NCBI RefSeq assembly: GCF_003628755.1
Contig: NZ_CP029256.1
Span: 1,879,585-1,943,584 of the forward strand
DNA: 64,000 nt
Origin: Christensenella minuta
GTDB lineage: Bacteria > Bacillota > Clostridia > Christensenellales > Christensenellaceae
Direction of reading: 5' to 3'
The notes beneath the pieces are model-generated. The model did no database searches. It had not been told where the DNA came from and worked only from the letters and a program-made list of their open reading frames with translations. This document shows, one piece after another, positions 4,486 through 25,618 of the stretch. A program made the position numbers and the translations under genes. Within the stretch, counting starts at the first letter, position 1; each line of letters starts with the position of its first letter.

Positions 4486-4518
4486 AAAAAAGGCTTGCAA
4501 AAAGATGCAGGCCTTTTT
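4486..4518 (+). terminator. Hairpin terminator
   Basis: AAAAAAGGCTTGCA pairs with TGCAGGCCTTTTT, giving a stem followed by a T run. It separates the finger protein gene from the adhesin gene; the flanking A and T runs would let it act in both directions. Confidence 0.7.
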
Positions 4519-4552
4519 GTTTACCCTTTTATCTGAAAAACAGGAGGTAGTT

Positions 4553-7500
4553 ATGAAAAAGATATCAAAAAAGGCAGTTTGCCTCATATTGGCAGTCGCG
4601 GTCTGTTTTTCCCTGATACCCGTTTCGGCATCAGCGGAAAACGGTATACCAAGCCCAGAATTGCCGGAAGTATCCATATCATCATCGGAACCAACGAAAA
4701 CGCCTGTTGTTGAACCGACGCCAGAGATTACTTCCACACCGGAACCGGAGAAAACACCGATTCCAACGGAAACGCCAAGTCAGGCGAATGAACAGGAACC
4801 GGAACCAACACCGAAACCACGGACGGCAGATATCAGCGGTATTCAGCCGATCCTGTTCCGAACAGTAAAGCAGCCTTTGGTACAGGTAACGTACCATTAT
4901 TACGCCCATGATGTCAGCGAAATACAATCTAGCCATTCCTTTTATGCAGAATTTGAAACAGATGGACGAGCCATCATGGTTTCGGCAAACAAATACCCGG
5001 ACAGGATCCCGGTCAGCACAGACCGTTTCCGTGTGACGCTGGACGGTGGCATAGACGTCACAGGCCATGCAGCCTATGACGCTGAAAGCGGGATCATTTC
5101 GCTTCCGGGCAATCTTGCCGGGCATGATCTGCATATTGAATTGTATTGCCCTGTTTCCGAAATCACGGAACTGCCCGTTACCGTAACGGTCAGTACCAAC
5201 AGGCACGATGTGTATGAAGACAGCGCCGTGGAACTCACTATGCCCTCCAATGCAGATACGGTCAGCATTCCGCTTACAGGCGTTTCAGGAGCCTCTGTCT
5301 CTCAAAACGGCGTAGACCTGCCGGACAGGGATTACAGCATAGAGAATGGAACGCTTACCATTTGCACCTCGCCGCTCGGCGGAAATATCCGGGTGAACGC
5401 CGCAGGCATTTTCCCCCAGACGCGCGGACGGGATAAGACCACGATCACCAGCATCCGCGACGAAAACCAGATCTATTACGGCTACTATACCAAATATTAT
5501 TGGGCTGACGGCAATCAGGCGTTTTGTCTCGATCCCACTGTTAAGGGAGCTTCCAACGGAGAGTATGCCATCAGCAGATACCTTGACCGTAACGGAAGCG
5601 ATCAGGATAAAACCTTAACAAAGATCGCGTATTACGGTTTCGGCGGCCCTGGATGGGACAGCGTAAAGGAGGGCTTGTTCGGAGATAACGACAACAATGA
5701 TTCCATGTATGCCCTGTGCCATGTAGCGGCGGCGTATGTATACCTCAATGACGAATCCGCGTTTAAGGGACTTGGCGATGATATGATCGGCCATGTCAAA
5801 GGAATGATAGCTTCGTTTGAGTCACAGGCTATGCCACCGGAGGGTTTTGACGCCTTCCTCTACAACGAGGGCCGCGCGAATGGCCAGCAGCCCATCATGA
5901 GCTGGGACTATACACCCACAGGTAACCTCGAGATCGTCAAAGTTTCTGCCGATCCCGCTAAAACGAACGGGAATCCCTGTTACTCTCTTGCCGGTGCGGT
6001 CTTTGATGTGTATTCCGGCAGCGGGCAGAAAATTGGCACAATCACCACAAAGGAAGATGGCAGAGGCAGTCTTACAGGCATCCCGGCAGGAACAGGATAT
6101 TACCTCGTAGAGCGTACCGCGCCAAAAGGGTATGCAGGACATACAGGGCAAATTTCTTTTGCCATTACCTCGGGACAAACGACGGCATTGGAGGTCAAAA
6201 ATATCCCGCAGAACGATCCGGCAGATATCCTGCTCCGCAAGCTGGACGCAGATAACGGAACAAATGTGCCGCAGGGCGGCGCGGGACTTATGGGAGCAGA
6301 ATTTACCATACGCTACTACAAAGGGCTGTATTCTACAGAAGCCGATTTGTCCGGGAAACAGCCGGAGCGGACATGGACTGTCAGGACAGACGCAGACGGC
6401 TATGCCCTGCTCCACCCGGACTATCTCGTTTCCGGCGATCCGCTGTATTACGGAAGCAATGGGCAAATACCCACCCTGCCTCTCGGAACAGTAACAATTC
6501 AGGAATCCAAAAGCCCGGAAGGATATTTGCCGAATGATGAACTGTTTATCCGGCAGATCAGCGCAGACAGCCAGGGCGTGGAATCGGTGTGGACATACAA
6601 TGCGCCTGTCGTTCGGGAATCCGTCATACGCGGCGGTGTTTCCGTACAGAAATGGGATAACGAACTGGACGGGAATACGCCGCAGGGAGACGGAACTCTG
6701 GAAAATACTGTACTGGAGATCGTCAACCGCAATGCGAAAGCAGTGATCGTAAACGGAAACTCCTTTGAGCCCGGGGAGGTCGTGCATACGATGATGACAG
6801 ACGAAACAGGCACGGCAAGTACGGCAAATGACCTGCTCCCCTATGGGAGATATGAGGTGAGGGAATCAGAAAACGGACAGCCGGAGGGGTATTTGCATGA
6901 GGGTGTACTTCAAAGAACGTTTGAAATCCGGGAAAACGGGAAAATAGTTAATCTGAACGCCTCCGGCACAGGAATCAAAAATGATGTGATCCGCGGCGGC
7001 GTCCGTATTGAGAAATGGGACGCGGAAATTGACGGAAACAAACCGCAGGGCGGCGGCACGCTTGCGGGCGCGGTGTTTGAGATTATAAGCCGGAGTAAAA
7101 TGGGTGTATTGGTAAACGGGACGCTGTATGCGCCCGGTGAAGTGGTATATACCATGAAAACGGACGAAACAGGCGCGGCAAGTACGGAAAATAACCTGCT
7201 TCCCTATGGTACATACGAAGTGCGGGAAACTGCTCCGCCGGATGAAGGATATCTGCATACGGGCGTACTCGCCCGTACTTTTACGATTCGTGAAAACGGA
7301 GAAATTGTGAACCTGAATACGGCTGATACGGCAATCAAAAACGAGCCGATCCGCGGCGACCTGAAAGGCGTGAAGATCGCAGACGGAACGGCGCAGCGGC
7401 TTGCGAATATCCCGTTCAAAATAACGTCCCTTACCACGGGAGAATCCCATACCATCATCACCGATAGGAACGGACAGTTTGATACCTCCTCCGCGTGGAA

Positions 7501-8977
7501 CCCGCATAGCCAAAACACCAACCGGGGAACGACAGACCGGGACGGTATCTGGTTTGGAGATATTGATACGCTGGACGACAGCGTGGGCGCGCTCCTGTAT
7601 GACGATTATCTGATCGAAGAACAGCGGTGCGAGGCGAACAAGGATATGGAGCTTCTTTCGTTTGAGGTCTCCATTTACCGCCACAATACTACTATAGATT
7701 TAGGAACATTGACCGACGATTATGGAAAGCAGCCGGAAATCTTTACGACGGCAAACGATGTGGAAACAATGCTGAATGACGCCTATGTGTCTGAACAAAC
7801 GACACTTCAGGACACGGTGTATTACAGCGGTTTGTCCGTTGGGAAGATATATACGGTCAAAGGCGTGTTGATGGACAAGGAAACAGGACAGCCGCTCCTC
7901 ATAGGCGGCGAGGAAATAACGGCGGAAACAGTGTTCCGGGCAACCGCGCCGGAAGGGACAGTTACCAATGAATTTACGTTCAACTCCCTTGACATGGATG
8001 GAAAGTCCGTAGTTGTTTTTGAGACGCTTGAACTGGATGGAAAAATAGTTGCGGAACATAAAGATATAGCGGACGAAAACCAGACGGTTCGGTTCCAGAA
8101 ACCGGAGATCGGTACAAATGCGGCTGGTCCGGATGGAGAAAAGGAGCTGGATGTGCTTCCCGAAGTAACGCTTGTGGATACGGTAACCTATCATGGATTG
8201 CTCCCGGGCGAAACATACACTTTGCAAGGCGTGTTAATGGACAAAGAAACAGGCGAACCGTTACTTGCGGATGATGAGCCGATCACCGCCTGGGCTGAGT
8301 TTGTGCCGGAAACGGAAAACGGGACAGTAGAAGTTATCTTTACATTCAACTCTGTTCCGCTCAAAGGCAAGACAGCCGTTGTGTTCGAAAGCCTGCAATA
8401 CAAAGGCCGGGAGATTTCCGTACACGCAGACATCGGGGACAAAGGGCAGACAGTACGTTTTCGGAACCCGGAGATTGGCACGACGCTCACCGGACAAGAG
8501 GGAGACAAAGAGATTGCAGTGAGTGAAGAAATATCCCTTGTTGATACAGTCTCGTATCAAAATCTTATGCCCGGAAAGGAATATGTGCTGAAAGGTATTC
8601 TGATGGCTCAGGAAACGGAACAGCCGATTCTTGTAAATGGTAAGGAAATTACGGCAGAAACAGTATTTACGCCGGAGGAATCAGCGGGAACAGCAAAGGT
8701 TATATTCACGTTCCCTGCCATAGACCTTACCGGGAAAACGCTGGTAGCGTTTGAGTATTTGGAGTGCGGGGGGACGGAGATCGCCGTACATACGGACATA
8801 AACGATGAAGCGCAGACGGTAACGTTACTGCCGCCGCCGGAGAACCCACCGAAAACGGGAGATACCCGAACCGTGCTCCCCTATCTCGTTATATGTGCGG
8901 CAGCGTCAGGGCTGATCGTGCTTACAATATGGCTGAAAAAGAAACGCTCTAAAAAAATACGGAACGGAGGCAAATAA
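4553..8977 (+). CDS. Large cell-wall-anchored adhesin with CnaB-like and ester-bond repeats
   Basis: This 1474-residue surface protein has a signal peptide (residues 1-31), a Pro/Thr/Glu stalk, and a head with QAFCLDP and a later CHVAAAYVYL that resembles thioester-type adhesion domains. SpaA/CnaB-type domains follow (AGAVFDVYSG, PAGTGYYLVE), then two near-identical units opening RGGV-KWD around 6620-7340. Three repeats of the T-Q ester-bond (VaFE) type lie at about 7740-8100, 8105-8470 and 8475-8835, each with TLQDTV- or SLVDTV-like and NQTV/AQTV ends. The C-terminus is a sortase signal: NPPKTGD, a hydrophobic helix and a Lys/Arg tail. ATG 4553 follows AGGAGGT. It is likely element cargo for attachment; no sortase gene is present in the window. 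Confidence 0.88.
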   Translation: MKKISKKAVCLILAVAVCFSLIPVSASAENGIPSPELPEVSISSSEPTKTPVVEPTPEITSTPEPEKTPIPTETPSQANEQEPEPTPKPRTADISGIQPILFRTVKQPLVQVTYHYYAHDVSEIQSSHSFYAEFETDGRAIMVSANKYPDRIPVSTDRFRVTLDGGIDVTGHAAYDAESGIISLPGNLAGHDLHIELYCPVSEITELPVTVTVSTNRHDVYEDSAVELTMPSNADTVSIPLTGVSGASVSQNGVDLPDRDYSIENGTLTICTSPLGGNIRVNAAGIFPQTRGRDKTTITSIRDENQIYYGYYTKYYWADGNQAFCLDPTVKGASNGEYAISRYLDRNGSDQDKTLTKIAYYGFGGPGWDSVKEGLFGDNDNNDSMYALCHVAAAYVYLNDESAFKGLGDDMIGHVKGMIASFESQAMPPEGFDAFLYNEGRANGQQPIMSWDYTPTGNLEIVKVSADPAKTNGNPCYSLAGAVFDVYSGSGQKIGTITTKEDGRGSLTGIPAGTGYYLVERTAPKGYAGHTGQISFAITSGQTTALEVKNIPQNDPADILLRKLDADNGTNVPQGGAGLMGAEFTIRYYKGLYSTEADLSGKQPERTWTVRTDADGYALLHPDYLVSGDPLYYGSNGQIPTLPLGTVTIQESKSPEGYLPNDELFIRQISADSQGVESVWTYNAPVVRESVIRGGVSVQKWDNELDGNTPQGDGTLENTVLEIVNRNAKAVIVNGNSFEPGEVVHTMMTDETGTASTANDLLPYGRYEVRESENGQPEGYLHEGVLQRTFEIRENGKIVNLNASGTGIKNDVIRGGVRIEKWDAEIDGNKPQGGGTLAGAVFEIISRSKMGVLVNGTLYAPGEVVYTMKTDETGAASTENNLLPYGTYEVRETAPPDEGYLHTGVLARTFTIRENGEIVNLNTADTAIKNEPIRGDLKGVKIADGTAQRLANIPFKITSLTTGESHTIITDRNGQFDTSSAWNPHSQNTNRGTTDRDGIWFGDIDTLDDSVGALLYDDYLIEEQRCEANKDMELLSFEVSIYRHNTTIDLGTLTDDYGKQPEIFTTANDVETMLNDAYVSEQTTLQDTVYYSGLSVGKIYTVKGVLMDKETGQPLLIGGEEITAETVFRATAPEGTVTNEFTFNSLDMDGKSVVVFETLELDGKIVAEHKDIADENQTVRFQKPEIGTNAAGPDGEKELDVLPEVTLVDTVTYHGLLPGETYTLQGVLMDKETGEPLLADDEPITAWAEFVPETENGTVEVIFTFNSVPLKGKTAVVFESLQYKGREISVHADIGDKGQTVRFRNPEIGTTLTGQEGDKEIAVSEEISLVDTVSYQNLMPGKEYVLKGILMAQETEQPILVNGKEITAETVFTPEESAGTAKVIFTFPAIDLTGKTLVAFEYLECGGTEIAVHTDINDEAQTVTLLPPPENPPKTGDTRTVLPYLVICAAASGLIVLTIWLKKKRSKKIRNGGK

Positions 8978-9390: not shown

Positions 9391-10101
9391 ATGCCCGATC
9401 CATATACTTATCCGGGTACGAATATATTAATCAATAAGTTTGATATACGCGACGGTCAGTTACTTACCGAAAAGGAAAATGACCTCGTATATATAAACCT
9501 CGTAACGGCAGAACAATATTTATCCGGGAAAGAGTTTACCGTAGATTTGTTAAAGAAGTTACATTATTATTTGTTTGGAGATATTTATGAGTGGGCCGGA
9601 CAATTTAGAACAATCAATATCAGGAAGGCAGAGCGTGTATTAGACGGAATGTCAGTAGAATATACCGACTACACGCTGCTTGAGAAAGAAACTGCAAGAA
9701 TTATAGCCGCCTTGCAGAACATAGAATGGGAACACCTTGAAACGGAAGACTGCGCGGATACATTTACCAAATGTTTTGCAGAGTTGTGGAAATTACACCC
9801 ATTTCGCGAAGGAAATACTCGTACCATAACTACCTTTATGCTTAGTTTTTTAGGCAGTAAGAATATTGATATCAATGTCGCTTTGTTTTCAGAGTACAGT
9901 TCATACGTCAGGGATTCCCTGGTCATGGCCTCTATCCAACCTTATCAAGAATATCAGCATTTATATAAAATCATTTTAGATGCAATGACAAATCATGCGG
10001 AACCCGAACGAATGGACAATAGCAAAAGGCAGGATTATTCTCATATCAATGACTATGACGTAAAAGAATACCATTACGAGCTTTTTGAAACAGAAGAATA
10101 A
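9391..10101 (+). CDS. Fic-family protein (AMP-transferase-type toxin)
   Basis: This 236-residue Fic-domain protein carries the catalytic loop HPFREGNTRT (about residues 132-141), matching HPFx[D/E]GN-x-R. Such enzymes transfer AMP or another nucleotide part to hydroxyl side chains of target proteins. The N-terminal part (YPGTNILINKFDI) matches stand-alone bacterial Fic toxins. The preceding VbhA-like gene is the expected inhibitor, so the pair probably stabilises the element like a toxin-antitoxin module. A terminator follows. Confidence 0.88.
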   Translation: MPDPYTYPGTNILINKFDIRDGQLLTEKENDLVYINLVTAEQYLSGKEFTVDLLKKLHYYLFGDIYEWAGQFRTINIRKAERVLDGMSVEYTDYTLLEKETARIIAALQNIEWEHLETEDCADTFTKCFAELWKLHPFREGNTRTITTFMLSFLGSKNIDINVALFSEYSSYVRDSLVMASIQPYQEYQHLYKIILDAMTNHAEPERMDNSKRQDYSHINDYDVKEYHYELFETEE

Positions 10102-11077: not shown

Positions 11078-11449
11078 ATGGCATATCCATATAATGCGTG
11101 GGAGGAAACTTACGAAGAGGTAACTGTTTTGGGAAAAACCATGTTGTTCACAAACGCCCGTATAGACCGAAGTACGGTTCCGAAAGGCATGTATCTGTAC
11201 GAAGTACGGCATGATGACGAAGGCCGCGGCGATCCGTGCGAGATCGCCCGTGCGGTCATGGTGAACCATTGGGGAACGCTCATTACGAACGAGCCGATCC
11301 GCTTGAAAAAAAGTCCCGTCACACAAAACGCTTACCGTGAGATCGATCCTCAAAAAGACTGGAATTATGAGGGTGGGAGCTGCAATCTGCAAGAATATAT
11401 GAAAAAATATCCTCCGCAGAAAGAAAAGCAAAGAGGAACAGAACGATAG
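11078..11449 (+). CDS. LPD28-like small protein
   Basis: This 123-residue protein contains the pattern TMLFTNARIDRSTVPKGMYLYEVRHDD and an IARAVMVNHWGTLITNEPI core, which I recognise from LPD28-type (large polyvalent protein associated) proteins of Tn1549-like elements. A paralog with the same core lies at 35849-36205, inside the transfer operon. Biochemical role unknown. It ends 12 bases before the TTG start of the helicase gene, whose ribosome site lies in this gap. Confidence 0.65.
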   Translation: MAYPYNAWEETYEEVTVLGKTMLFTNARIDRSTVPKGMYLYEVRHDDEGRGDPCEIARAVMVNHWGTLITNEPIRLKKSPVTQNAYREIDPQKDWNYEGGSCNLQEYMKKYPPQKEKQRGTER

Positions 11450-11461
11450 GAGGTACATATC

Positions 11462-14400
11462 TTGGCAGGAAAGGTACAAAGTATTATAGAGCTTGCGCAG
11501 GAGACGCTCCTGCGGATCACAGGCAGCGTACAGGAATGGGAATCCTTTCTGGATTCCGCCGCATGGCTATATAAATACCCGTTCCACGAGCAGACCCTTA
11601 TATACGCGCAAAGGCCGGATGCTCGCGCCTGCGCGTCATTCGAGCTTTGGAACGACCGTATGAGGCGTTGGATCAACCGTGGAGCTAAGGGGATTGCCCT
11701 GATCGACGACAGCGGCGAAAAACCATCGCTGAAGTATGTTTTCGACGTGTCGGACACCCGGCCTATGGCCAATCTCCCGTTCCGTCTATGGGAGATGCGG
11801 GAACAGGACGAAGAAAAGATACTGGAAGAACTGGTAAACCATTTCGGAGAGATCGAAGAACGGTCAGAGCTTCCCTTTTCGGACCGTCTTTTCGGCGTTA
11901 TATCCAATACCGTCACAGATAATCTCGGAGACTACTTTGACGGACTGCTCCGGGATATTGGCGGCAGTATGCTCGAGGGACAGGACGAGCTTGAAATTAG
12001 CGCAGACTTTCAACGCCTTGTGGAAAACAGCGTCCATTACTGCCTACTTGCGCGTCTTGGATATTCCCCGCGCGAATATTACGCACCGGAAGAATTTGGG
12101 GACGTCATCGAATTTCATACGCCCGCGCTTGCGGCCCATCTTGGGAGCGCCGCAGGAGATATATCAGAAATGCTGCTCCGGCAGATTGAGCGGACAGAGC
12201 TTTCCCTCCTGCGGGAAGAACGCGACAAACTTGCCAAACCGGAAGAAGTATCGGAGAATGAAGAAAAACAGGAAAATGAAAGGAGTAAAGAATATGGAGA
12301 TCACATACAAAGAGAAGAACGGACAAATGATCCCCGAACTCACGATGCCGCGCCAGCCGCAGGAGAAGATCGGGAAATACGGGAGGATGCGCAGGACATT
12401 CCTGAAAGACCACAGGAAAGGGCTGTACAACAGCCTGCTCCTGAACGGGAAACTGACGGAACACCTGATCGAGGTAGACCGGAAAGTCCGCGGGATCGTG
12501 GAACTGACCATAACGAAGATGGCGCAGGACGGGGGCGTGACGGAGGAACTGAAAGCGTCCGATCCCATGAAATGGACGGGCCTGATGAACAATCTGAAGC
12601 AGGCGGCGGAGGAAGCGGTAATCCACGACCTCATATACAATTAACCGAAACCGAAAGACCGGAGGATAACGAATCCCCCGGTTTTTTATTGCGGGAAAAC
12701 AGTCCGCAGGAACAGCTGTCCCTGCTCAAAACGGAGCCGGGATTCACTTTGCCGCAGCAAATAGTGGACGAAGCTCTGTGCCTTGGCGGGAACAAAAGAA
12801 ACAGCGTCCTGCGCATTTGCGCCAAATTCAAGAAAGACAAAGGGCTTGCAGAAAATACCGCATTTCTGCGGGGGGAATACGGCACGGGCGGCCGCGGATT
12901 TTATACGGACGATCAGCCTGTATCCATGTGGTTTGACGAATCGGGCCTTCGGATCGTGCAGGGCCGGAGCGTTGAGAAAGCTGCCGGGCATATTTCGCTT
13001 ACTTGGGAACAGGCGGCAAAGCGCGTGATGGAGCTTCTCACGCTTGGGCGTTACCTGCCGAAAGAAGAACTGGAGCGGGCGGATGAAACGGAGCGCGCTG
13101 AAATCGCGGGCAGCCTGTATTTCTTTTTCCGGGACGATCACCAAAATCTTCCGCAGGAATGGAAAACGGAAGGCTCCGGCGCGCCGGAAGTACAGGCGCA
13201 CATCATAGATATGCTGTCGCGGGAAGAAGGCATAGAAGATATTCTGCAAAGGCTGAGAGCCGCCATCGAAGATTTCAGACAGGATCCTCCCGCGCGCCGC
13301 ATTCTCCATGATCCCGAGCGCCTTTTGCAGGACGTTTCCGACCTGAAGCGTATCCCGCTTGCTTTTGAGGCGCAGGAAACTGCGCGGGAACTTCCCCGGC
13401 GCTTTATTACCGACGATGAGATCGCGGGATTTTTTCAAAATTTTATTCACGTTACAGATAATAAGTACCGCACATACCTATACTTTCAAAAGGAAAGATC
13501 CAATCAGGAGCGCGGAAAATTCCTGAGCGAAATATTCGGCACAGGCGGAAGTTATCCGGGAATGTCCGGAACAGACGACAGCGGCGAATGGCACGACAGG
13601 AAAGGCATTGCCCTCTCCCGCGGCAGCATTGCCGCTCCGTATGACAAAGTGCTCCTCTCATGGACAAAAGCAGCGAAGTATATCGGCAGCATGATCGAGC
13701 AGGACAAATACCTCACCCCGGAAGAAAAGGCATACCTACCGGAATATGAACGCAAGGAGGCGGAACGGGAACAAAAACAGGAGGAAGCCCGCCTGCTTCG
13801 CGAAGCGGAAGAACGTATCGCAAAGCGGACGCGGGAACAGGAACGGGAAAGGCGGGAATCTGCAAGTTACGATTATTCGCTTGGCGCGGAAGTGTTCCTT
13901 CCTACCGGAACTCACACCATCCTCGGGATCACGGATGACGCAGTAACAGTCAACGATGAGAAATATCCGCTTTTGACCAAAGAGATCCCGCGCGGAGATT
14001 TTGACCGTATGCTGCGGCAGGACAGCCGCAATGATGGCCTTATGGCCGAATCGCAGGAGGCAAAAGAAAGCCCCTATGCGTATGCTGTGAATGATACGGT
14101 GTATCTCGACGGGACTGCTTTCCGAATCACACAGATCACGGACAATGAGGTACAGCTTCTCGATCCTGCGCTTTCCCCCCCTGTTTTCCGTGCAGAAAAC
14201 AAAGAGACATTCCAACATCTTTTGGAGCAGGACGAGCGCAATGCCAAATATATGCCGGAGATGTCCCATCGGGCAATCACGAAAACAAATCTTGCCGAAG
14301 CCCCGGACGATGTACCGGAATCTACGCCCCCGCAAAAACAACAGGCGGAAAATTACCGTATTACAGATGACGAGCTTGGCTATGGCGGCAAAAAGGAGAA

Positions 14401-17400
14401 ATTCAGCAGGAATATTGCCGCGATCCGTATCCTTCAGACGATTGAGAAAGAAAACCGCGCTGCCACGCCGGACGAACAGGAAGCGCTGGCGCAGTATGTG
14501 GGCTGGGGCGGGATACCGGAAGCGTTTGACGAACACAACGATTCCTGGAAAACCGAATATACAGAACTCAAAGAGCTGTTGCCCGAAGCAGAATATGAAT
14601 CCGCACGCGCGTCTGTCCTGAACGCCCACTACACCTCTCCTACCGTAATACGCGCCATCTATGACTGCATTGCGGGAATGGGATTTGAAACCGGGAATAT
14701 TCTGGAGCCGTCGTGCGGTACGGGAAACTTCTTCGGTATGCTGCCGGATTCCATGACAAACAGCAAGCTATATGGGATCGAGCTTGACAGTATCACCGGG
14801 CGCATCGCAAAGCAGCTTTATCCGAATGCGGAGATCACGGTACAGGGCTACGAACACACCAACCTGCCGGACAGCTTTTTTGACCTTGCCATTGGCAATG
14901 TCCCGTTTGGAAATTACCGCGTACCGGATAAGAGATACGACAAAAACAAGTTTTCCATTCATGATTACTTTTTTGCCAAAACGCTGGACAAGGTGCGCCC
15001 GGGCGGGATCATAGCCTTTGTAGTCAGCCGGTTCACGATGGACAAGAAAGACTCCTCCGTCCGCAAATATATCGCGGAGCGCGCAGATTTTCTTGGAGCT
15101 GTAAGGCTGCCGAATAACGCTTTTTCCAAAAATGCAGGAACAGAGGTCACGGCAGATATCCTGTTTCTGCAAAAGCGCGACAGGCCGCAGGTACCAGGGC
15201 CCCCGCAAAAGCCCAACGAAGTGGGTTTTGCGGGGAGGAGGAGCGTCAACGGAGCAAGCGAGTCTTTGGGCTTGCCCAAAGACGAAGAAAGCGCAGTTTG
15301 GCGCGACGAAGCGGGTTGGATACATACACAGAAAACGGAGGACGGATATTCCCTCAACGCATACTTCATAGACCACCCGGAAATGATACTCGGTATGTTA
15401 TCCACCGAACATACGCAATACGGCGGAAAAGATGTAAAGTGTGTGCCGATCCCCGGCGCAGACCTCAGGAAGCAGCTGAAAGAGGCATTGTCGCATATCG
15501 ACGCGCGCATCACAGACTACGACGTAGAGTTCCCGGAACAGGACGAAACGGAGTCCATCCCAGCCGATCCGAATGTGCGCAATTACAGCTATACCCTGCA
15601 TGACGGAAAAATATATTTCCGGGAAAACAGCCGTATGAACCGCGTGGATGTGTCTTTGACCGCTGAAAACAGGATACGCGGCATGATCGGGATACGGGAC
15701 TGTATGCGCCGCCTGATCGACGTCCAAATGGAAAACGGAACAGAGGAGGAAGTACAGCAGGAACAGCGAAAGCTCAATTCGCTGTACGACAGTTACACCA
15801 AAAAATATGGGCTGCTCAATTCACGCGGCAACAGCATGGCGTTTTCAGACGATTCGGCGTACTTCCTTATTTGCTCCCTTGAAATACTGGACGCGGACGG
15901 AAAACTAAAACGTAAAGCAGACATGTTTTCCAAACGCACCATCCGTCAGCCGGAAGCCGTTACTTCGGTGGATACCGCGCAGGAAGCCCTTACGGTATCC
16001 CTTGCCGAAAAAGCAAAGGTGGACCTTACATATATGGAGCAGCTTACCGGAATATCCGGCAGCGAGATCGTGCGGGAGCTGCGGGGAATCATCTTCCGGG
16101 ATTTCGGAACGCTGATTCCCGAGGAAATGGCATGGGATTTCTTTGATCCCGAACAATTCCCGCTTGTAACAGCCGACGAATACCTGTCCGGCAACGTGCG
16201 GGCAAAACTCAGGCAGGCGCGCGGTATTTACAAGGTTTTACAGGAACACGGAGCGGAAGCGGGCTTACTGGATACTGTGCGGATACAGGTGGAAGCCCTT
16301 GAAAAAGTACAGCCGAAAGACCTGTCCGCAAGCGAGATCGACGTGCGGCTGGGCGCAACGTGGCTCCCGCCGGAACATGTCGAGGAGTTTGTTTACGCAC
16401 TGCTGAAGCCGTCCCCTTACCTCAAAACCAAGATCCATGTGCGGTATTCCCCGTCCACCGCCCTTTGGAATATCTCAAATAAGAACTGGGACGATAAAAA
16501 CATTGCTGTGACCAATACATACGGGACGAAGCGCGTGGGAGCATACAAGATCATCGAGGAGACGCTTAACCTGAAAGACGTGCGCGTCTTTGATAAACGC
16601 ATCGCTCCGGACGGAACGGAAAGCCGTGTACTGAATGTGGAGCAGACCATGATCGCACAGCAGAAACAGCAGACGATCAAAGACGAATTTCACAAGTGGG
16701 TATGGGCGGATATAGACAGGCGGGACGCGCTTATCAGGATATATAACGAAAAGCTCAACGCCATTCGTCCCCGGGAATATGACGGGAGTCATCTGAGGTT
16801 TCCCGGCATGAACCCGGAAATCCGGCTGAAAGAACATCAACTAAACGCAGTGGCGCGGACGGTCTACGGCGGGAATACCCTGCTCGCGCACGTCGTGGGT
16901 GCTGGCAAAACCTACGAGATGACCGCCGCGGCAATGGAACTCAAACGGCTCGGGCTGTGTCAGAAGAGCCTGTTTGTCGTACCCAACCACCTGACCGGAC
17001 AATGGGGCGCTGAATTTTTGCAGCTTTATCCATCGGCCAATATCCTTGTGGCAACGAAAAAAGACTTTGAAACAGCGAACCGAAAAAAGTTTTGTGCGCG
17101 TATCGCGTCCGGGGATTACGACGCGGTTATCATCGGACATTCCCAGTTTGAAAAGATACCGCTTTCGATGGGACGGCAGATCATGATGATCAAGGAACAG
17201 ATTGCCGAAATCGTCGCCGGAATCGCGGAACTGAAAGAGGCAAACGGCGAACGCTTTACCATCAAGCAAATGGAAAAAAGCAAAAAACGCCTGGAAGACA
17301 AACTTGTGAGGCTCACGGATACCAGCCGGAAAGACGACGTCGTAACGTTTGAGGAATTGGGCGTGGACAGGCTGTTTGTGGACGAGGCGCATTTTTACAA

Positions 17401-17689
17401 GAATCTGTTTCTGTTTACTAAAATGCGCAATGTAGCGGGGCTTTCCCAAACGGAAGCGCAGAAATCCGCAGACCTCTTTGGAAAGACGCGGTATCTGGAT
17501 GAGATCACCGGAGGCCGGGGAACTGTATTTGCCACGGGTACGCCGATCAGCAACAGCATGACGGAACTGTATACCATGCAGCGCTACCTCCAGTATTCAT
17601 TACTTCAAAAAAATGATCTGGTACATTTTGACGCATGGGCGTCAACCTTTGGCGAGACCGTAACGGCGCTTGAACTGAAACCGGAGGGC
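11462..17689 (+). CDS. N6-DNA-methylase/SNF2-type helicase of the conjugative element, first part (interrupted)
   Basis: About 2075 codons of a giant polyprotein-like gene start at TTG 11462 (AGGAGG upstream). An N-terminal region is followed by a charged low-complexity linker (about residues 260-400), coiled regions, a methylase domain with ILEPSCGTGNFFG and the NVPFG motif (about residues 1080-1150), and the first helicase lobe with HVVGAGKTYEM, VDEAHFYKN and FATGTPISNSM (about residues 1810-2040). Family members act in DNA processing or protection during transfer. A Tn4451-like element enters at 17685, just before the second helicase lobe. The disrupted frame picks up a stop after YTLIGR at 17708-17710. 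The rest of the gene is at 23983-25618. Confidence 0.85.
12295..12644 (+). CDS. tnpV: TnpV-like protein encoded inside the helicase gene in another frame
   Basis: A complete 116-residue ORF with its own AAAGGAG ribosome site lies wholly within the helicase gene in a different plus-strand frame. Its product is homologous to the TnpV of the Tn4451-like element in this window (19803-20174): 44 of the last 89 residues are identical by hand count, including KYGR, HL-E-D, GVTE, LKA-D, GLMNN. The helicase frame across these bases gives a low-complexity string rich in Glu, Arg, Pro and Gly, as expected where the other frame carries the constraint. TnpV function is not established. This is a real overlapping gene by sequence evidence; expression is untested. 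Confidence 0.8.
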
Positions 17690-17757
17690 TATACTTTAAT
17701 AGGACGATAAAATTAACTGTCCTAAATTGAAAATACATAAGGAAGGAGGTTAAGAGA

Positions 17758-19878
17758 ATGTCAAGGACTTCAAAGATTACAGCACTTTATGAGAGATTAT
17801 CAAGAGATGATGACCTGAATGGCGAGAGTAATTCCATTACCAATCAGAAAAAATACCTCGAAGATTATGCCCGTAGAAATGGCTTTGAGAACATCCGCCA
17901 TTTTACTGACGATGGTTTTTCGGGTGTAAATTTCAATCGCCCAGGCTTTCAGTCTTTGATAAAAGAAGTTGAAGCAGGCAATGTCGGAACATTGATTGTT
18001 AAGGATATGAGCCGATTAGGGCGAAACTATCTGCAAGTCGGATTTTATACGGAAATTCTGTTTCCGCAGAAAGATGTCCGTTTTCTTGCAATCAACAACA
18101 GCATTGACAGCAACAATGCTTCGGATAATGATTTTGCTCCGTTTTTGAATATTATGAACGAATTTTATGCCAAAGACACGAGCAATAAAATCAAGGCTGT
18201 ATTTGATGCCCGAATGAAAGACGGAAAGCGTTGTAGCGGTTCAATCCCTTATGGATATAACCGATTGCCGAGCGATAAGCAGACGCTTGTTGTTGACCCT
18301 GTGGCTTCTGAGGTGGTAAAGCGTATCTTTCTGCTTGCCAATGAGGGCAAAAGTCCACGAGCCATAGCGGAAATACTGACCGAAGAAAAGGTTTTAATTC
18401 CTGCCGCATATGCAAAGGAATATCACCCAGAACAGTACAACGGGATTAAGTTTGCAGACCCTTATATTTGGGGCATATCTGCCATTAGAACGATTTTAAG
18501 CAGGCAGGAATATCTTGGACATACTGTTTTGAGAAAGTCGGTCAGCACCAATTTTAAATTGCATAAGAGAAAGACTACCGATGAAGATGAGCAGTATGTG
18601 TTTTATAACACCCACGAGCCTATCATATCGCAGGAACTTTGGGACAGTGTTCAGAAGCGAAAGAAACGAGTGAACAGAGCTGCGGCAAGAGGTACACATA
18701 CCAACCGATTAAGCGGTTATCTGTACTGTGCCGACTGTGGCAGGAGAATGACTTTGCAAACGCATTATAGCAAGAAAGACGGTTCTGTTCAGTATTCTTA
18801 CCGTTGCGGCGGGTATGCAAGCAGGGTTAATTCCTGTACTTCCCATACGATTAGTGCTGATAATGTTGAAGCCTTGATATTATCGGCAGTTAAACGCTTT
18901 TCAAGATTTGTTCTGAATGATGAAAAAGCCTTTGCTTTGGAACTGCAATCCCTTTGGAAAGATAAGCAAGAGGAAAAGCCGAAGCACAATCAATCGGAGT
19001 TGAAACGCTGTCAGAAACGCTATGACGAACTCTCTACGCTCATTCGTGGCTTGTATGAAAATCTTATATCGGGATTGCTACCCGAAAGACAATACAAGCA
19101 ACTGATGAAGCAGTATGACGATGAACAGGCTGAATTGGAAGCGAAAATGGAAACTATGAAAAAGGAACTTTCTGAAGAAAAAGACAGCACTATGGATATT
19201 CAGCATTTTATATCGCTGATACGCAAGTACAAAAATCCTACGGAAGTTTCTGATTTGATGTTTACCGAACTCATTGACAAGATTGTGGTGTATGAAGCCG
19301 AGGGTGTGGGAAAAGCAAAGACACAAAAGGTTGATATTTACTTCAATTATGTCGGACAGGTCGATATTGCCTACACCGAGGAAGAACTTGCCGAGATAAA
19401 AGAGCAGGAAGAACAGGAAGAAAAGAAGCGATTGGAGAAACAGCGTCAGCGTGAAAAAGCCTATCGAGAGAAGCGAAAGGCAAAAAAACTTGCTGAAAAC
19501 GGTGGCGAAATCGTCAAAACAAAGGTATGTCCTCATTGTGGGAAAGAGTTTACCCCTACAAGCAACCGACAGATTTTCTGTTCAAAGGATTGCTGCTATC
19601 AGGCAAGGCAGGATAAGACAAAAGCCGATAGAGAAGCGGAAAAAGGAAGTCATTATTATCGTCAGCGTGTATGTGCTGTGTGTGGCAGTACTTACTGGCC
19701 TACACACAGTCAGCAGAAATTCTGTTCCGAGGAATGTAAAAAGGTAAATCACAATAAGAAAACCTTGGAGTTTTACTACAAGAAGCAAAAGGAGAAAGAA
19801 CTATGCAAAGATTTATTACAGACGAAAGAACAGGTATCCGATACGAACTCATCGGAGATTACTATTATCCCTGCCTGA
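17758..19878 (+). CDS. tnpX: Large serine recombinase TnpX
   Basis: This 706-residue large serine recombinase matches the length of TnpX of Tn4451. The N-terminal resolvase domain has the nucleophile Ser15 in YERLSRDD, and DMSRLGR follows near residue 88. A recombinase domain and a zinc-ribbon segment (CADCGRRM around residue 324) follow, then a coiled coil. Two further Cys clusters (CPHCGKEFTP and CAVCGSTYWP) lie in the last 120 residues. It cuts at GA dinucleotides to excise and insert the element. ATG 17758 follows AAGGAGG, and the end overlaps tnpV by 76 bases. Confidence 0.93.
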   Translation: MSRTSKITALYERLSRDDDLNGESNSITNQKKYLEDYARRNGFENIRHFTDDGFSGVNFNRPGFQSLIKEVEAGNVGTLIVKDMSRLGRNYLQVGFYTEILFPQKDVRFLAINNSIDSNNASDNDFAPFLNIMNEFYAKDTSNKIKAVFDARMKDGKRCSGSIPYGYNRLPSDKQTLVVDPVASEVVKRIFLLANEGKSPRAIAEILTEEKVLIPAAYAKEYHPEQYNGIKFADPYIWGISAIRTILSRQEYLGHTVLRKSVSTNFKLHKRKTTDEDEQYVFYNTHEPIISQELWDSVQKRKKRVNRAAARGTHTNRLSGYLYCADCGRRMTLQTHYSKKDGSVQYSYRCGGYASRVNSCTSHTISADNVEALILSAVKRFSRFVLNDEKAFALELQSLWKDKQEEKPKHNQSELKRCQKRYDELSTLIRGLYENLISGLLPERQYKQLMKQYDDEQAELEAKMETMKKELSEEKDSTMDIQHFISLIRKYKNPTEVSDLMFTELIDKIVVYEAEGVGKAKTQKVDIYFNYVGQVDIAYTEEELAEIKEQEEQEEKKRLEKQRQREKAYREKRKAKKLAENGGEIVKTKVCPHCGKEFTPTSNRQIFCSKDCCYQARQDKTKADREAEKGSHYYRQRVCAVCGSTYWPTHSQQKFCSEECKKVNHNKKTLEFYYKKQKEKELCKDLLQTKEQVSDTNSSEITIIPA

Positions 19879-20174
19879 CAGTAGAGAAAAGTCCTCCCCT
19901 TTCAAAATATGGTCGATTGCGGCAACGATATTTGAGGGAACATAAGCGTGTGCTATATTTTAATCTGCTGACAAGCGGAAAGTTATATGAACACCTTGCC
20001 GAAATTGATACTTCGGCTCGTGATATGGCGGAATATCTGATAAAGGAAATGGCAAAGAAGCAGGGTGTAACGGAAAAACTGAAAGCAACGGATATGATGA
20101 GATGGATAGGATTGATGAATAACATTCGAACCTGTGCCGATGAGATTGTATTGAATGATATTGTGTATTCCTAA
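19803..20174 (+). CDS. tnpV: Transposon-encoded protein TnpV
   Basis: This 123-residue protein matches TnpV proteins found beside TnpX in Tn4451-type elements, with the conserved core [14 protein letters not shown] and MMRWIGLMNNI. It starts within the tnpX 3' end in another frame, so translation is probably coupled. The role is unknown; an accessory function in excision has been suggested only from position. It is the reference for the nested copy in the helicase gene at 12295-12644. Confidence 0.85.
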   Translation: MQRFITDERTGIRYELIGDYYYPCLTVEKSPPLSKYGRLRQRYLREHKRVLYFNLLTSGKLYEHLAEIDTSARDMAEYLIKEMAKKQGVTEKLKATDMMRWIGLMNNIRTCADEIVLNDIVYS

Positions 20175-20237
20175 CGGATACCAACCGAAGAAGAACTGCT
20201 GTCAAACCGATGGCAGTTTTTCTTTTTCGGCAAGTAT

Positions 20238-20266
20238 TCAAGAAGTCATTAAGTCGTGAGTATAAT
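20238..20266 (+). repeat. 29-bp inverted repeat, left copy
   Basis: These 29 bases, starting TCAAGAAGTCATTAAGTCGT, occur as a perfect inverted copy at 23669-23697, with about 10 further imperfectly matching bases on the inner side. The copies enclose the NTF2-like, ATPase and relaxase genes, but not tnpX/tnpV or tnpW. The right end of each repeat reads TATAAT, so each could hold an inward-facing promoter. They could also be ends of an older nested unit. Confidence 0.7.
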
Positions 20267-20347
20267 CGAAGTGGTAGAAAAATTCGTAAAGATGTGGTAC
20301 AATACTTTTGCTTGTGAGCGACAAATCGGAAGTTATGGAGGTACTTT

Positions 20348-20767
20348 ATGAACGAAAGAGAAAAAATTATCCGATTATGGTTTGATATGTGGATTAAGAA
20401 AGCAGATTTAGGAATTGACAATATTTTTACAGATGATGTTGTATATACTGAGAGTTGGAGTCCTAAATATGAAAACCGCAAAACGGTAAAGCACTGGTTT
20501 GACGAATGGAATACACGCGGAAGTGTTCTTGTCTGGGAGATTAAGCAATTTTTTCATCAAGGCAATCAAACAATCGTGGAGTGGTATTTTAAAAGCAAAA
20601 TGAATAATGGAAATGTTGAAGAATTTGACGGAATATCTTTAATTGTATGGACACAGGATAACAAAATAAAATCATTAAAAGAGTTTGGTTGCAATCTTCA
20701 TAATTACAATCCATATCGAGATAGTGATATTCCCGTATTTCGAGAAGAAAAAGCAAATTGGTTTTGA
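20348..20767 (+). CDS. NTF2-like/SnoaL-type protein (cargo)
   Basis: This 139-residue protein opens with EREKIIRLWFDMWIKKADLGIDNIFTDD, and VVYTESWSPKYEN leads into a WFDEWN helix and strands. That is the usual layout of nuclear-transport-factor-2-like (SnoaL-type) small folds used by isomerases, hydrolases and ligand-binding proteins. The substrate cannot be predicted. It has its own GGAGGT site before ATG 20348 and a terminator after it, so it is a single-gene cargo unit inside the mobilizable element. Possible promoter boxes TAGAAA and TACAAT lie about 50 bases upstream. Confidence 0.7.
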   Translation: MNEREKIIRLWFDMWIKKADLGIDNIFTDDVVYTESWSPKYENRKTVKHWFDEWNTRGSVLVWEIKQFFHQGNQTIVEWYFKSKMNNGNVEEFDGISLIVWTQDNKIKSLKEFGCNLHNYNPYRDSDIPVFREEKANWF

Positions 20768-20818
20768 GAGGACTATAAATTCCAGTTTGCCAGTATCTTA
20801 GACAGAATATGAACAACG

Positions 20819-20848
20819 AAAAACATCGTAGCAATACGGTGTTTTTTT
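20819..20848 (+). terminator. Terminator after the NTF2-like gene
   Basis: AAAACATCGTA pairs imperfectly with TACGGTGTTTT, followed by a T run. It insulates the cargo gene from the ATPase-relaxase operon. Confidence 0.75.
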
Positions 20849-20877
20849 GTTACCTAAAACCAACAAATTCATACATA

Positions 20878-20999
20878 ACCACAGGTTGGTACAAATACCT
20901 TGTGTGATTTTTTGAAAGGCTTAGAACGGGGATTTTCTCCGATTTTCGCCCCTAAAAGATACACAAAAAGGTTTCAAGTATCTTTCCTGTGGTTTTTTT
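20878..20999 (+). ncRNA. Candidate structured leader RNA or attenuator
   Basis: ACCACAGG (20878-20885) can pair with CCTGTGGT (20986-20993) to close a roughly 115-base domain. Inside are GGTA/TACC (20888-20899), GGGG/CCCC (around 20928-20952) and AAAGATAC/GTATCTTT (20956-20985). The closing strand is followed by a run of seven T. A closed multi-helix domain ending in a terminator-like stem, just ahead of a small protein-ATPase-relaxase operon, suggests an attenuator or cis-acting RNA controlling replication or mobilization genes. No known riboswitch class was recognised. Confidence 0.4.
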
Positions 21000-21025
21000 A
21001 TTTTCAAACGGAAAGGTGGATTGAT

Positions 21026-21205
21026 ATGCCAAGAATGAGCAAGAAACGCAAACAAGAATGGGCATTGTTTCTGAATGACCGTAATCGCATTACCTACAAC
21101 GAACTTTGCAGAAAATGCAGGAATGACTGTAAGCAGAGTTTCCGCTGTATCGTGGTGCTTTGCCCGAAATATTTATCGAAAAGGAGAACAAATAAAAATG
21201 ATTGA
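21026..21205 (+). CDS. Small cysteine-containing basic protein upstream of the ATPase
   Basis: This 59-residue protein starts MPRMSKKRKQEWALFLNDRN and contains CRKCRNDCKQSFRC, four cysteines that could bind a metal. AAAGGTGG lies upstream of ATG 21026. Its end overlaps the ATPase start by eight bases, pointing to one transcript. It is probably an accessory DNA-binding or regulatory factor of the element, but no family is recognised. Confidence 0.6.
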   Translation: MPRMSKKRKQEWALFLNDRNRITYNELCRKCRNDCKQSFRCIVVLCPKYLSKRRTNKND

Positions 21206-22214
21206 AAATGAAATGACTGTCAGCGTACCTCTTGAAGTTGTCAAGGCAAGCGAAATCGAGCCGAAGGAAGTGAAATGGCTGTGGTATCCGTATATTCCGT
21301 TTGGCAAGGTTACGCTGTTGCAGGGCGATCCGGGCGATGGAAAAAGCAAGTTAATGCTGTCAATCGCCGCACTGCTCTCTAAGGGCGAACCTCTGCCTTT
21401 TACTGAAACGGAAGAAAATGAGCCTATGACTATCATCTATCAGACAACGGAAGATGATGCAGACGATACGGTAGTACCCCGATTTAACTCTGCCGGTGGG
21501 AACGGAGAAAACCTTATCTTCATCAAGGAAGATGAAAAGTCTTTATCCTTTGGAGATAACCGTATTGCTGAAGCAATCGAAAAGTATCACGCAAAACTTT
21601 TAATTCTTGACCCGATGAGTTCCTATATCGGAGAGAACTGTTCAATGAACAATGCCAACGAAACAAGGGCAGAGTTTAATCACTTGATTGCAGTTGCAAA
21701 AAATACTGGCTGTGCCATCGTGATTATCGCCCATATGAACAAGATGAGAGATATAAATCCTCTTTATCGCACCAACGGTTCGATTGATATTGCGGGTGCT
21801 GCAAGAAGTATTCTTGCAATCACACGCACACCGAACAAAGAAGCACCAGCGGAACGATATATGGTGCAAGTGAAATCTAACCTTGCCCCGACAGGCTCGG
21901 CAATTCTTTTTGAGGTGGCAGAAAAGGGAGTGGACTTTATCTCTGAAATGGAAATGACAGCAGAAGAAGCGTTCCAATCCCTCGCACCCAAAATGGGCAG
22001 ACCGAACGAAAAGGAAATCAAGGCGAAAGAATTTCTTTTGGAAATGCTGAAAGACGGAGAAATGCTTTCTTCGGATTGCGAAGAAAGACTTGAAGCCGCT
22101 GGGTTCAAAAAATCGACCATCAAAAAGGCAAAGAAGAAAGCAGGAGTTATCTCCCGAAAACAAGGCTTTCTGTGGTACTGGTCTTTGCCGATGGGCGATA
22201 TACCGAGAGAATAA
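21198..22214 (+). CDS. RepA-like AAA ATPase
   Basis: This 338-residue protein has an AAA_25/RecA-like fold: Walker A GDPGDGKSK (about residues 43-51), LLILDPMSSYIG as Walker B, then IIAHMNKM and a sensor-like segment. A C-terminal helical domain after residue 270 looks like a winged helix. Hexameric helicases of this kind (RepA of RSF1010 type) unwind DNA for plasmid or element replication. In Tn4451-like mobilizable elements it sits directly ahead of the relaxase gene and probably serves replication of the excised circle. ATG 21198 follows AAGGAG. Confidence 0.8.
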   Translation: MIENEMTVSVPLEVVKASEIEPKEVKWLWYPYIPFGKVTLLQGDPGDGKSKLMLSIAALLSKGEPLPFTETEENEPMTIIYQTTEDDADDTVVPRFNSAGGNGENLIFIKEDEKSLSFGDNRIAEAIEKYHAKLLILDPMSSYIGENCSMNNANETRAEFNHLIAVAKNTGCAIVIIAHMNKMRDINPLYRTNGSIDIAGAARSILAITRTPNKEAPAERYMVQVKSNLAPTGSAILFEVAEKGVDFISEMEMTAEEAFQSLAPKMGRPNEKEIKAKEFLLEMLKDGEMLSSDCEERLEAAGFKKSTIKKAKKKAGVISRKQGFLWYWSLPMGDIPRE

Positions 22215-22315
22215 AAGCAGGCTGTCTGATGGCGGGACAGTCTGTTTTTATGATGGAGGTATCAAAAGGAGGTCAAGGGGGAACACCCTTGCCCACGACA
22301 TCTTTGCAGACGAAG

Positions 22316-22362
22316 TCTGAAAGTGTCATAGTGGGTTACACACATTCAGAGAATGTTGTGTA
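22316..22362 (+). promoter_or_regulatory. Candidate origin of transfer (oriT) for the MobV relaxase
   Basis: Just upstream of the relaxase gene, 22329-22338 reads TAGTGGGTTA, close to the pMV158-family nick motif TAGTGTG/TTA. It is flanked by partial inverted repeats (AGTGT with ACAC, and ACACACATTC with GAATGTTGTGT). MOBV relaxases normally cut such sites near their own gene. A further hairpin CAAGGG/CCCTTG lies at about 22275-22292. Confidence 0.6.
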
Positions 22363-22394
22363 ATGGCTTCGCCCTGTCTGGAAAGGAGAGAAAA

Positions 22395-23660: not shown

Positions 23661-23668
23661 CCATTTCC

Positions 23669-23697
23669 ATTATACTCACGACTTAATGACTTCTTGA
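23669..23697 (-). repeat. 29-bp inverted repeat, right copy
   Basis: This is the exact reverse complement of 20238-20266. It begins nine bases after the relaxase stop codon. See the left copy for interpretation. Confidence 0.7.
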
Positions 23698-23778
23698 TAT
23701 ATTGAAAATCTGCGGTTACTGGGTGCTCTAATGTGAATGCCCAGCAATCAAATTTTATGAAAGAGAGGAACTGACTAT

Positions 23779-23967: not shown

Positions 23968-23982
23968 CAAACTCGACCCCGA

Positions 23983-25618
23983 AGGAACGGGATACAGGCT
24001 GCGCACACGGTTCGCCCGCTTTTATAATCTGCCGGAACTGCTTGCCATGTTCAAGGAGTGCGCGGATATACGGACGGCGGACACATTGGATTTGCCTGTT
24101 CCGGAAGCAAACTATCATACGGTAGTGACAAAGCCAAGCGACTTTCAAAAAGAGATGGTAGCGGAATTTGCGGATCGTGCCGATGTGGTGCGGAGCGGAA
24201 AAATGGATCCGACAATAGACAATATGCTGAAAATAACCAACGACGGGCGCAAACTCGCGCTTGACCAACGCATCCTGAACTCTATGCTGGAGGACGATCC
24301 GCAAAGCAAAATAAATGCCTGCGTGGAAAATATCTTAAAAGTGTACCGGGACACAGCGGATCAAAAAGGAACGCAGCTTGTGTTTTCCGATCTTTCCACG
24401 CCGCAGGGAGCTTTGGAACTGACCAAAGACGAAAACGGCGTATATTCCCTGCCGAACGGCTTTTCCAATGTCTACGAAGATATACGGGTAAAGCTTCTGA
24501 ACAAAGGCATACCGCGCGATGAGATCGCCTTTATTCACGAGGCGAATACGGACGCGAAAAAAATTGACCTGTTTTCCAAAGTGCGGAGCGGAAAGGTGCG
24601 TATCCTCATGGGATCGACTTCTAAAATGGGCGCCGGGACCAACGTACAGGACAGGCTTGCGGCGCTCCATCATGTCGATGTGCCGTGGCGCCCCGCTGAC
24701 ATCGAGCAGCGCGAAGGGCGCGCGATCCGGCAGGGAAACAACAACGAATCCGTAGATATTTTCCGGTATGTGACGGAGAATACGTTCGACGCATATATGT
24801 GGCAGACCATAGAAAGCAAACAGAAGTATATTGGGCAGATCATGACTTCAAAGGCTCCTGTCCGCTCATGCGAGGACGTGGACGAGGCCGCCCTTTCCTA
24901 TGCGGAGGTCAAAATGCTCGCAACGGGCAATCCCTACATCAAAGAGAAAATGGACCTCGACATCGCCGTATCGAGGCTGCGGCTGCTGCAATCGGATTAT
25001 TTGAGCCGAAAGTATGAACTCGAGGACAAAGTGGCCAAACATTACCCTGTGATGATCGAACATACGAAAGAAACGGTTCGGGGGCTTAAGGCGGATATGG
25101 ATCTGCTCAGGCAGCATCAGAGCGAGGACTTCCCCGGTATGGAGATCGAGGGCGTACTGTTCAAGGAAAGAGCGGCGGCAGGCGCGGCAATCGTGGAACT
25201 CTGTAAACGGGCAAAAGATTCAAACGAACGGGAGATCGGGACGTATAAGGGATTCAAAATGCTGCTTTCGTTTGATACATTTGACCGTCATTTCAAGCTG
25301 AACTGCAAAGGAACGATGTCCCATGTCACAGAGCTTGGAGCGGACGCGCTTGGGAACATGACGCGGATCGAGAATACCCTGAAAGGCGTCGCGGACAGAG
25401 CCGAGGCCAACGAGGAAAAATTGCAGGAGCTTCGGCGGCAGATGGAAAACGCGAAAGAAGAGATCGGGAGGCCGTTTAAGCAGGAACAGGAACTCAAAGA
25501 GAAAACGGAGCGCCTCACGGCGGTAAACGCACTGCTTAATCTCGGTGATGCGACGCCCGAAGCGGTGGACACGACGCCGGAGGAAACGCAGGAAAAGACA
25601 CAGGAAATACAACGATAG
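23983..25618 (+). CDS. Methylase/SNF2-type helicase, last part
   Basis: This is the 3' remainder of the gene begun at 11462, about 545 residues, in frame with it once the mobilizable element is removed. After GTGYRLRTRFARFYNLPELL comes the second helicase lobe: VRILMGSTSKMGAGTNVQDR and DIEQREGRAIRQGN (the Q-x2-GRxxR box), then a coiled C-terminal region. Without the insert the protein would be about 2619 residues. As it stands, both lobes are separated and the protein is probably inactive until the element excises. This part alone could only start at an internal ATG (24047). Confidence 0.85.

Follow-up and report, generated by a model that had tools for sequence, protein, structure and literature searches.

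Evidence that a tnpV gene is nested out of frame within the helicase gene of a conjugative element in Christensenella minuta and its relatives

The helicase gene of a conjugative element from Christensenella minuta very probably contains a second gene. Taken as a whole, the observations are best explained by an old and functional tnpV gene whose translation would start internally on the helicase mRNA and whose bases would double as a disordered linker of the helicase protein. Judging from the sequence comparisons described below, a single stretch of 348 bases encodes two proteins on the same strand, with tnpV having its own ribosome-binding site and start codon and lying in the same frame relative to the helicase in every copy checked. 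The copy that served as the starting point lies in a stretch of 64,000 nucleotides of contig NZ_CP029256.1 (positions 1,879,585 to 1,943,584), referred to here as the window, and the features under discussion are listed in Table 1.

Table 1. Features of the window that bear on the nested tnpV gene (coordinates are window positions).
Feature	Position	Strand	Basis or remark
Methylase/SNF2-type helicase gene, 5' part (2082 codons)	11462..17710	+	SNF2-rel_dom, 27.6 bits (cut-off 24.9)
Helicase N-terminal region upstream of tnpV (query of the helicase-first search)	11462..12265	+	Record annotations at matches
Shine-Dalgarno site AAAGGAG	12279..12285	+	8 nt before the tnpV ATG
tnpV nested in the helicase gene	12294..12644	+	116 codons and stop; ATG to TAA
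Helicase linker sharing bases with tnpV	12296..12644	+	Frame relation, composition, weak constraint
TnpX-like serine recombinase of the Tn4451-like element	17758..19878	+	Pfam Resolvase, Recombinase, DUF4368
Free-standing tnpV of the Tn4451-like element	19803..20174	+	Pfam TnpV
Helicase 3' part (Helicase_C)	24047..25618	+	Pfam; split from the 5' part by the inserted element

The nested gene lies wholly inside the helicase ORF, which crosses it on the same strand in another frame without meeting a stop codon. Its product matches the Pfam family TnpV (PF14198) over positions 1-111 of 111 (E 8.6e-37; 125.9 bits against a cut-off of 27), and it is 47% identical, over 103 columns covering residues 14-116, to the free-standing TnpV of the Tn4451-like element in the same window. 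An earlier note on this DNA, made from the letters alone, had described an ORF of 116 codons at 12295..12644 that was preceded by an AAAGGAG site, that resembled the TnpV of the Tn4451-like element and that lay where the helicase frame is of low complexity. The ORF, the ribosome-binding site and the resemblance were all recovered, and the product of the helicase frame in the overlap proved to be rich in G, D, E, R, A, S and P across 110 nested loci; only the start had to be corrected, as the ATG lies one base earlier. Helicase codons begin at tnpV codon position 3, and so the wobble base of tnpV is the first base of a helicase codon, while the wobble base of the helicase is the middle base of a tnpV codon. 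The genome from which the window was taken has four TnpV genes, two of which are nested in helicase genes.

The length of the open frame is by itself mildly unusual. When the linker codons (a block of 138) were shuffled at random, a frame of at least 116 codons was left open in 435 of 20,000 shuffles, or about 2%. Homology and conservation in relatives are beyond chance, and a chance open frame as the sole explanation is rejected, though length alone is weak evidence in this regard.

The surroundings of the pair are those of a conjugative element. In addition to the SNF2 domain, the 5' part of the helicase gene matches ResIII (27.8 bits; cut-off 22.5), and the DNA methylase profiles Methyltransf_25 (19.9; cut-off 27) and Eco57I (17; cut-off 25.3) score below their cut-offs there. 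Among the plasmid records listed (60 of 204), the places that match the N-terminal region mostly bear the annotation 'ArdC-like ssDNA-binding domain-containing protein' or 'SNF2-related protein'. A MobA/VirD2-type relaxase, a T4SS coupling protein and a TraG-type ATPase are encoded around the helicase gene, as in conjugative elements. The helicase gene is split by a Tn4451-like mobilizable element (window about 17710-24046) that encodes a TnpX-type recombinase, TnpV, an AAA protein and a Mob_Pre relaxase, and the Helicase_C reading frame downstream of this element is, from its position and domain, presumably the remainder of the same helicase gene. Insertion of IMEs into SNF2 helicase genes of ICEs is reported in passages of PMC5704250 and PMC9815147. 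Within the inserted element, the recombinase ORF shares up to 76 bases (19803-19878, taking TnpV from its first ATG) with the ORF of the free-standing TnpV, which accordingly has its start within another gene as well. The helicase gene is closely preceded by genes for a Fic protein (9391-10101) and an LPD28 (large polyvalent protein associated) protein (11078-11449), and near the conjugation genes there is a large ORF for a surface protein with thioester, SpaA and T-Q ester bond domains (4505-8977).

Relatives of the nested gene were collected from both directions. Short peptide patterns of the window TnpV were used to scan 84,980 species genomes, a procedure that favours relatives keeping such patterns, and 79 relatives with 39-97% identity were found. 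The helicase-type frame was open through the TnpV match in 73 of these 79 (the other six being L066, L070, L072, L075, L079 and the broken copy L083), in a set that was chosen by TnpV and whose embedded class was defined partly by the absence of stops. The converse search used the helicase N-terminal region alone as the query against 291 genomes of the class and found 82 places in 63 genomes, 80 of which were fetched; those left out were the window's own copy and one short match (G154). TnpV followed the helicase N-terminal domain in 74 of the 80 loci. At 69 loci the N-terminal domain was followed by 900 nt or more of open helicase frame, and these had a full-length TnpV (57 loci), a partial TnpV, for which the profile matched in part and the frame was open over 90 codons or more (11 loci), or no TnpV (one locus, L162). 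The earlier note had considered that the TnpV frame might regularly be broken in related elements while the helicase frame stays open; the opposite was found, as the TnpV frame is kept in 68 of the 69 loci with an open helicase frame. Where the helicase frame was broken (7 loci), four loci had a full TnpV, one a short TnpV and two none, and of four loci at contig edges one had a short TnpV and three had none.

The TnpV profile used for the 80-locus survey was iterated with members of the surveyed loci; the first-round profile, made only from loci of the window genome and of the peptide-pattern scan, gave a match at E 0.01 or better in 56 of 60 loci of this survey and at about 1e-10 or better in 51 of 60. 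In the helicase-first and plasmid loci checked, all 82 TnpV profile matches lay on the helicase strand in one relative frame, and the other five frames gave none. A survey of the phylum with a broader N-terminal profile covered 398 genomes and found 56 places in 29 genomes among the matches listed, 30 of which were fetched. A full N-terminal domain was followed by TnpV in the same frame in 16 of 16 cases, two of which are the window genome's own and three of which overlap the first survey. The 14 short N-terminal matches, mostly in ORFs of a few hundred codons, were without TnpV in 13 cases and had one weak match. One of these short matches (L319) lies in an ORF of 2354 codons in which no TnpV was detected, making it a second long gene without TnpV.

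Nested TnpV was also found in plasmid records from Streptococcus suis, S. agalactiae, Enterococcus faecalis, Listeria, Cohnella and Monoglobus. The TnpV match in a Ruminococcus albus plasmid record is weak (27 bits), and in a Pusillibacter plasmid record TnpV is present and the helicase N-terminus was not detected. The nested pair comes from records of at least two classes, Clostridia and Bacilli. The TnpV family as such occurs in 105 of the 291 genomes of the class, the loci fetched from that search being part of the TnpV matches listed, and viral contigs gave one relative only. Distances between TnpV sequences agree with those between helicase N-terminal regions (Mantel rho 0.90; none of 999 permutations as high; n=118), which indicates that nested copies mostly travel with their helicase. 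Some loci show the pair in decay or rearrangement. At L119 and L120 TnpV is intact while the helicase frame stops shortly after and within the TnpV stretch, respectively, and so TnpV may outlast its helicase. At L134, on the minus strand, the helicase N-terminus and its nested TnpV are interrupted near the end of TnpV; a second TnpV follows, leaving two copies side by side, and then an ORF that looks by eye like a serine recombinase.

Free-standing TnpV genes provide a natural control for the double reading. The helicase-type frame has no stop codon in 128 of 131 distinct helicase-adjacent TnpV genes, whereas it has at least one in 86 of the 91 TnpV genes that are not beside a helicase N-terminus, a contrast for which the copies were sorted by helicase adjacency and not by the absence of stops. 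Two of the five stop-free copies in the latter group (L076 and L077) lie at a locus edge that truncates the helicase N-terminus. The flanks of 89 free-standing TnpV copies, mostly of about 1-1.5 kb and shorter at contig ends, yielded no helicase remnant, and the same search did return a helicase remnant at a decayed helicase-adjacent copy (L170).

We compared 39 pairs of nested copies, each sequence being used once, that differ at 2-33% of their nucleotides and are not phylogenetically independent. Pooled over these pairs, and with short margins at the borders excluded, the difference rates at helicase codon positions 1, 2 and 3 were 0.160, 0.114 and 0.360 upstream of tnpV, 0.243, 0.120 and 0.090 inside it, and 0.234, 0.178 and 0.428 downstream. 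The fastest codon phase therefore switches within the ORF: the helicase wobble position is the fastest outside and the slowest inside, where the wobble position of TnpV is the fastest. Two-frame counts on the nested pairs, with mutations to stops excluded, gave a TnpV dNN/dSN of 0.207 (95% 0.179-0.241) and dNS/dSS of 0.099 (0.066-0.138). In each of the 39 pairs the TnpV products resemble one another more closely than do the helicase products of the same bases (means 0.843 versus 0.691). These comparisons show that the nested tnpV is under purifying selection as a protein. The codon-phase switch and the dN/dS values reject conservation of the TnpV frame driven by the helicase, and they bear out the assertion of the earlier note that conservation in the embedded frame does not derive from the helicase frame.

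The helicase dSN/dSS was 0.575 (0.385-0.805), with a small doubly silent class of 122 sites, and the same ratio for the empty frame of free-standing TnpV was 1.55 (0.98-2.68; 20 pairs). The helicase dNN/dNS was 1.21 (1.06-1.38) and the control value 1.09, which is no constraint by this measure. The outer helicase frame is maintained through the overlap, as seen in the stop-free copies described above and in the dSN/dSS ratio, and constraint at the level of residues is weak. Beyond staying open, the linker is under weak constraint at most. The suggestion of the earlier note that the linker tolerates any sequence was nearly right.

How might TnpV be expressed from within the helicase gene? A start codon lies near the expected place in 125 of 128 nested copies, and 123 of these are ATG. 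A Shine-Dalgarno score of at least 5 was obtained at 114 of the 128 copies versus 6 of 121 control positions taken downstream in the same frame. TnpV may be made by internal initiation on the helicase mRNA, and both proteins would then come from one transcript, while in the helicase the bases of tnpV would encode a disordered linker that joins the N-terminal domain to the methylase/helicase part. An alternative is that TnpV is never initiated at a start of its own but always arises fused to the helicase N-terminus by a frameshift, and in the window the TnpV frame is indeed open far upstream, for 268 codons in all. Among nested loci, though, the length of open frame upstream ranges between about 10 and about 170 codons, which speaks against a fusion, as do the conserved start codon and Shine-Dalgarno site, and we consider the fusion very improbable.

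Two further explanations would deny the TnpV frame a role as a protein-coding gene. The TnpV frame might be a passive by-product of a selected helicase frame in a stop-poor linker, and the fraction of shuffles that leave such a frame open is a point in its favour. This explanation runs counter to the slow helicase wobble position inside the ORF, to TnpV dN/dS ratios of about 0.1-0.2, to the greater likeness of the TnpV product in every pair and to the existence of free-standing homologues, and it can be given almost no credence. The conserved bases might instead constitute a DNA or RNA element, such as an attachment site, an oriT or a structured RNA, in which the open frame is incidental. DNA sites would be plausible here given that IMEs insert into SNF2 helicase genes of ICEs, according to the passage of PMC5704250 noted above. 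The changes between copies follow the codon phase of TnpV, and no Rfam family reached the gathering threshold in 11400-13400, so that an RNA family at the tnpV region is rejected; an element of this type seems extremely unlikely.

A further question is which of the two frames came first. Synonymous codon usage scored 0.109 in the TnpV frame and 0.107 in the helicase outside the overlap, versus -0.113 for the helicase frame in the overlap and -0.110 for the third, unused frame, and 82 of 110 loci gave TnpV a higher score than the linker. Native codon usage would by the usual reading make TnpV the older frame, but this is suggestive only because TnpV owns the free third positions whichever frame came first. 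By amino-acid make-up, 108 of 110 loci have a linker that is nearer to the remainder of the helicase than TnpV is, and residue entropy is 3.58 for the linker versus 3.97 for TnpV.

The one locus without TnpV among the 69 with an open helicase frame (L162; 244-3513) has an intact helicase ORF that is open to the end of the stretch. Its gap from the N-terminal domain to the next conserved domain is about 97 nt, versus about 470 nt in the window; the linker can thus be absent, and it is shorter by about the length of TnpV. A search of 70 genomes of its family (E 1e-40) found no relative besides the locus itself, and its placement in the helicase tree is compatible with either loss or a primitive state. 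A TnpV tree was built from 102 representatives (53 free, 49 nested) over 113 columns and is unrooted and poorly resolved. The nested and free labels were derived from helicase adjacency and stops, with L075, L258 and L209 set to free by hand and L076 and L077 kept as nested. At least 10 changes between the nested and free states are needed on this tree, three of them forced by well-supported branches, and the nested copies are paraphyletic, with five of the six longest terminal branches leading to them. The AU test rejects a grouping of all free-standing copies in a single clade (p-AU 0.008), within the limits of this poorly resolved tree.

One possibility is that tnpV, which may be the older frame, was once a separate gene between a gene for the N-terminal domain and a gene for the methylase/helicase part. 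On fusion of these flanking genes, the fused reading frame would have run across tnpV, which had to stay. By such inverse overprinting an old tnpV would have been overrun and become the linker of a giant protein, and the resulting cassette would have spread with conjugative elements through Clostridia and Bacilli. We put this forward tentatively, at somewhat less than an even chance. It corresponds to one of the origins proposed in the earlier note, in which the helicase linker grew over a captured TnpV; codon usage, the frequency of free-standing TnpV and the short linker of L162 favour that proposal, and the likeness of the linker to the rest of the helicase in make-up goes against it.

An alternative origin is that TnpV was born de novo in the helicase linker, as in classical overprinting, and that mobilizable elements later acquired it from there, several times over, as a gene standing on its own. 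The paraphyly and long end branches of the nested copies, the repeated changes of state, the rejection of a single free-standing clade and the make-up of the linker would all fit this history. The tree that supplies most of these points is unrooted and weakly resolved, however, and other observations point the other way: the TnpV frame, unlike that of the linker, has native codon usage, residue entropy is lower in the linker, as expected of a young disordered segment, and no helicase remnant accompanies the 89 free-standing copies within the flanks searched. De novo birth is therefore regarded as rather unlikely, roughly a one-in-several prospect.

TnpV is a small protein that is well conserved. 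A C-terminal KASDPMKW motif is invariant in 45 aligned TnpV rows, the motif being also one of the search patterns by which those rows were selected, and the free-standing TnpV of the window has KATDMMRW at that position. By sequence TnpV has no convincing relative of solved structure (best E 0.5) and no NCBIfam match up to E 1, and its match in PHROGs is one family without an assigned function. A role as an excision factor was postulated from homology with lambda Xis in a passage of PMC3158075, and a passage of PMC5704250 states that the Tn4451 serine integrase works without an RDF; a Xis role for TnpV is not supported here. Since TnpV recurs in conjugative helicase genes and beside the serine recombinases of mobilizable elements, our guess is that it may act in DNA processing or in establishment of the element.

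Most nested genes known in bacteria are known from one species. Rz and Rz1 are nested lysis genes of phage lambda whose products work together. Like tnpV and the helicase gene, they are wholly nested on the same strand with both frames coding in a mobile genome, but their products cooperate in lysis, whereas TnpV and the helicase are unrelated proteins, of which the outer one apparently uses the overlap as a linker only. The Bacillus subtilis gene comS has a narrow distribution. It resembles tnpV in lying on the same strand and out of frame inside a very large gene, srfA, with a separate function (passage of PMC12350097), and it differs from tnpV, which has many free-standing homologues and forms a pair kept across at least two classes. 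The same passage describes olg1 and olg2 of Pseudomonas aeruginosa as long overlaps that are reported to be translated and under purifying selection, the latter property being one that sequence comparison indicates for tnpV as well; they are of 957 and 1728 nt and are given there for one species, whereas tnpV is a same-strand gene of 351 nt that belongs to a defined Pfam family. A further counterpart is the free-standing tnpV of Tn4451-type elements (PF14198; passage of PMC3158075), which belongs to the same protein family and differs from the nested form in the stops in its helicase-type frame, present in 86 of the 91 copies that lie away from a helicase N-terminus.

The earlier note considered complete same-strand overlap of two unrelated proteins to be unusual, and the passage of PMC12350097 names only a few well-documented nested genes in bacteria. 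No description of the tnpV/helicase overlap was found among the open-licence PMC papers listed. Out-of-frame nested genes are seldom annotated in bacteria. In the PLSDB gene table, which is incomplete by its own description, the three plasmid records with both frames open list either the helicase only (L283) or TnpV only (L284 and L285), and such one-frame listings point to an annotation problem.

A nested gene that belongs to a curated family, has free-standing relatives as a control and occurs in many genomes makes double coding measurable statistically. The tnpV/helicase pair can thereby serve as a test bed for the order in which two overlapping frames arise and for the way in which a pair of proteins makes use of common codons. 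TnpV, a small protein that has been neglected, is moreover linked by it to the conjugation machinery. If the fusion of flanking genes across an older tnpV is the true history, the pair would rank among those same-strand nested genes that bacteria have retained most widely.
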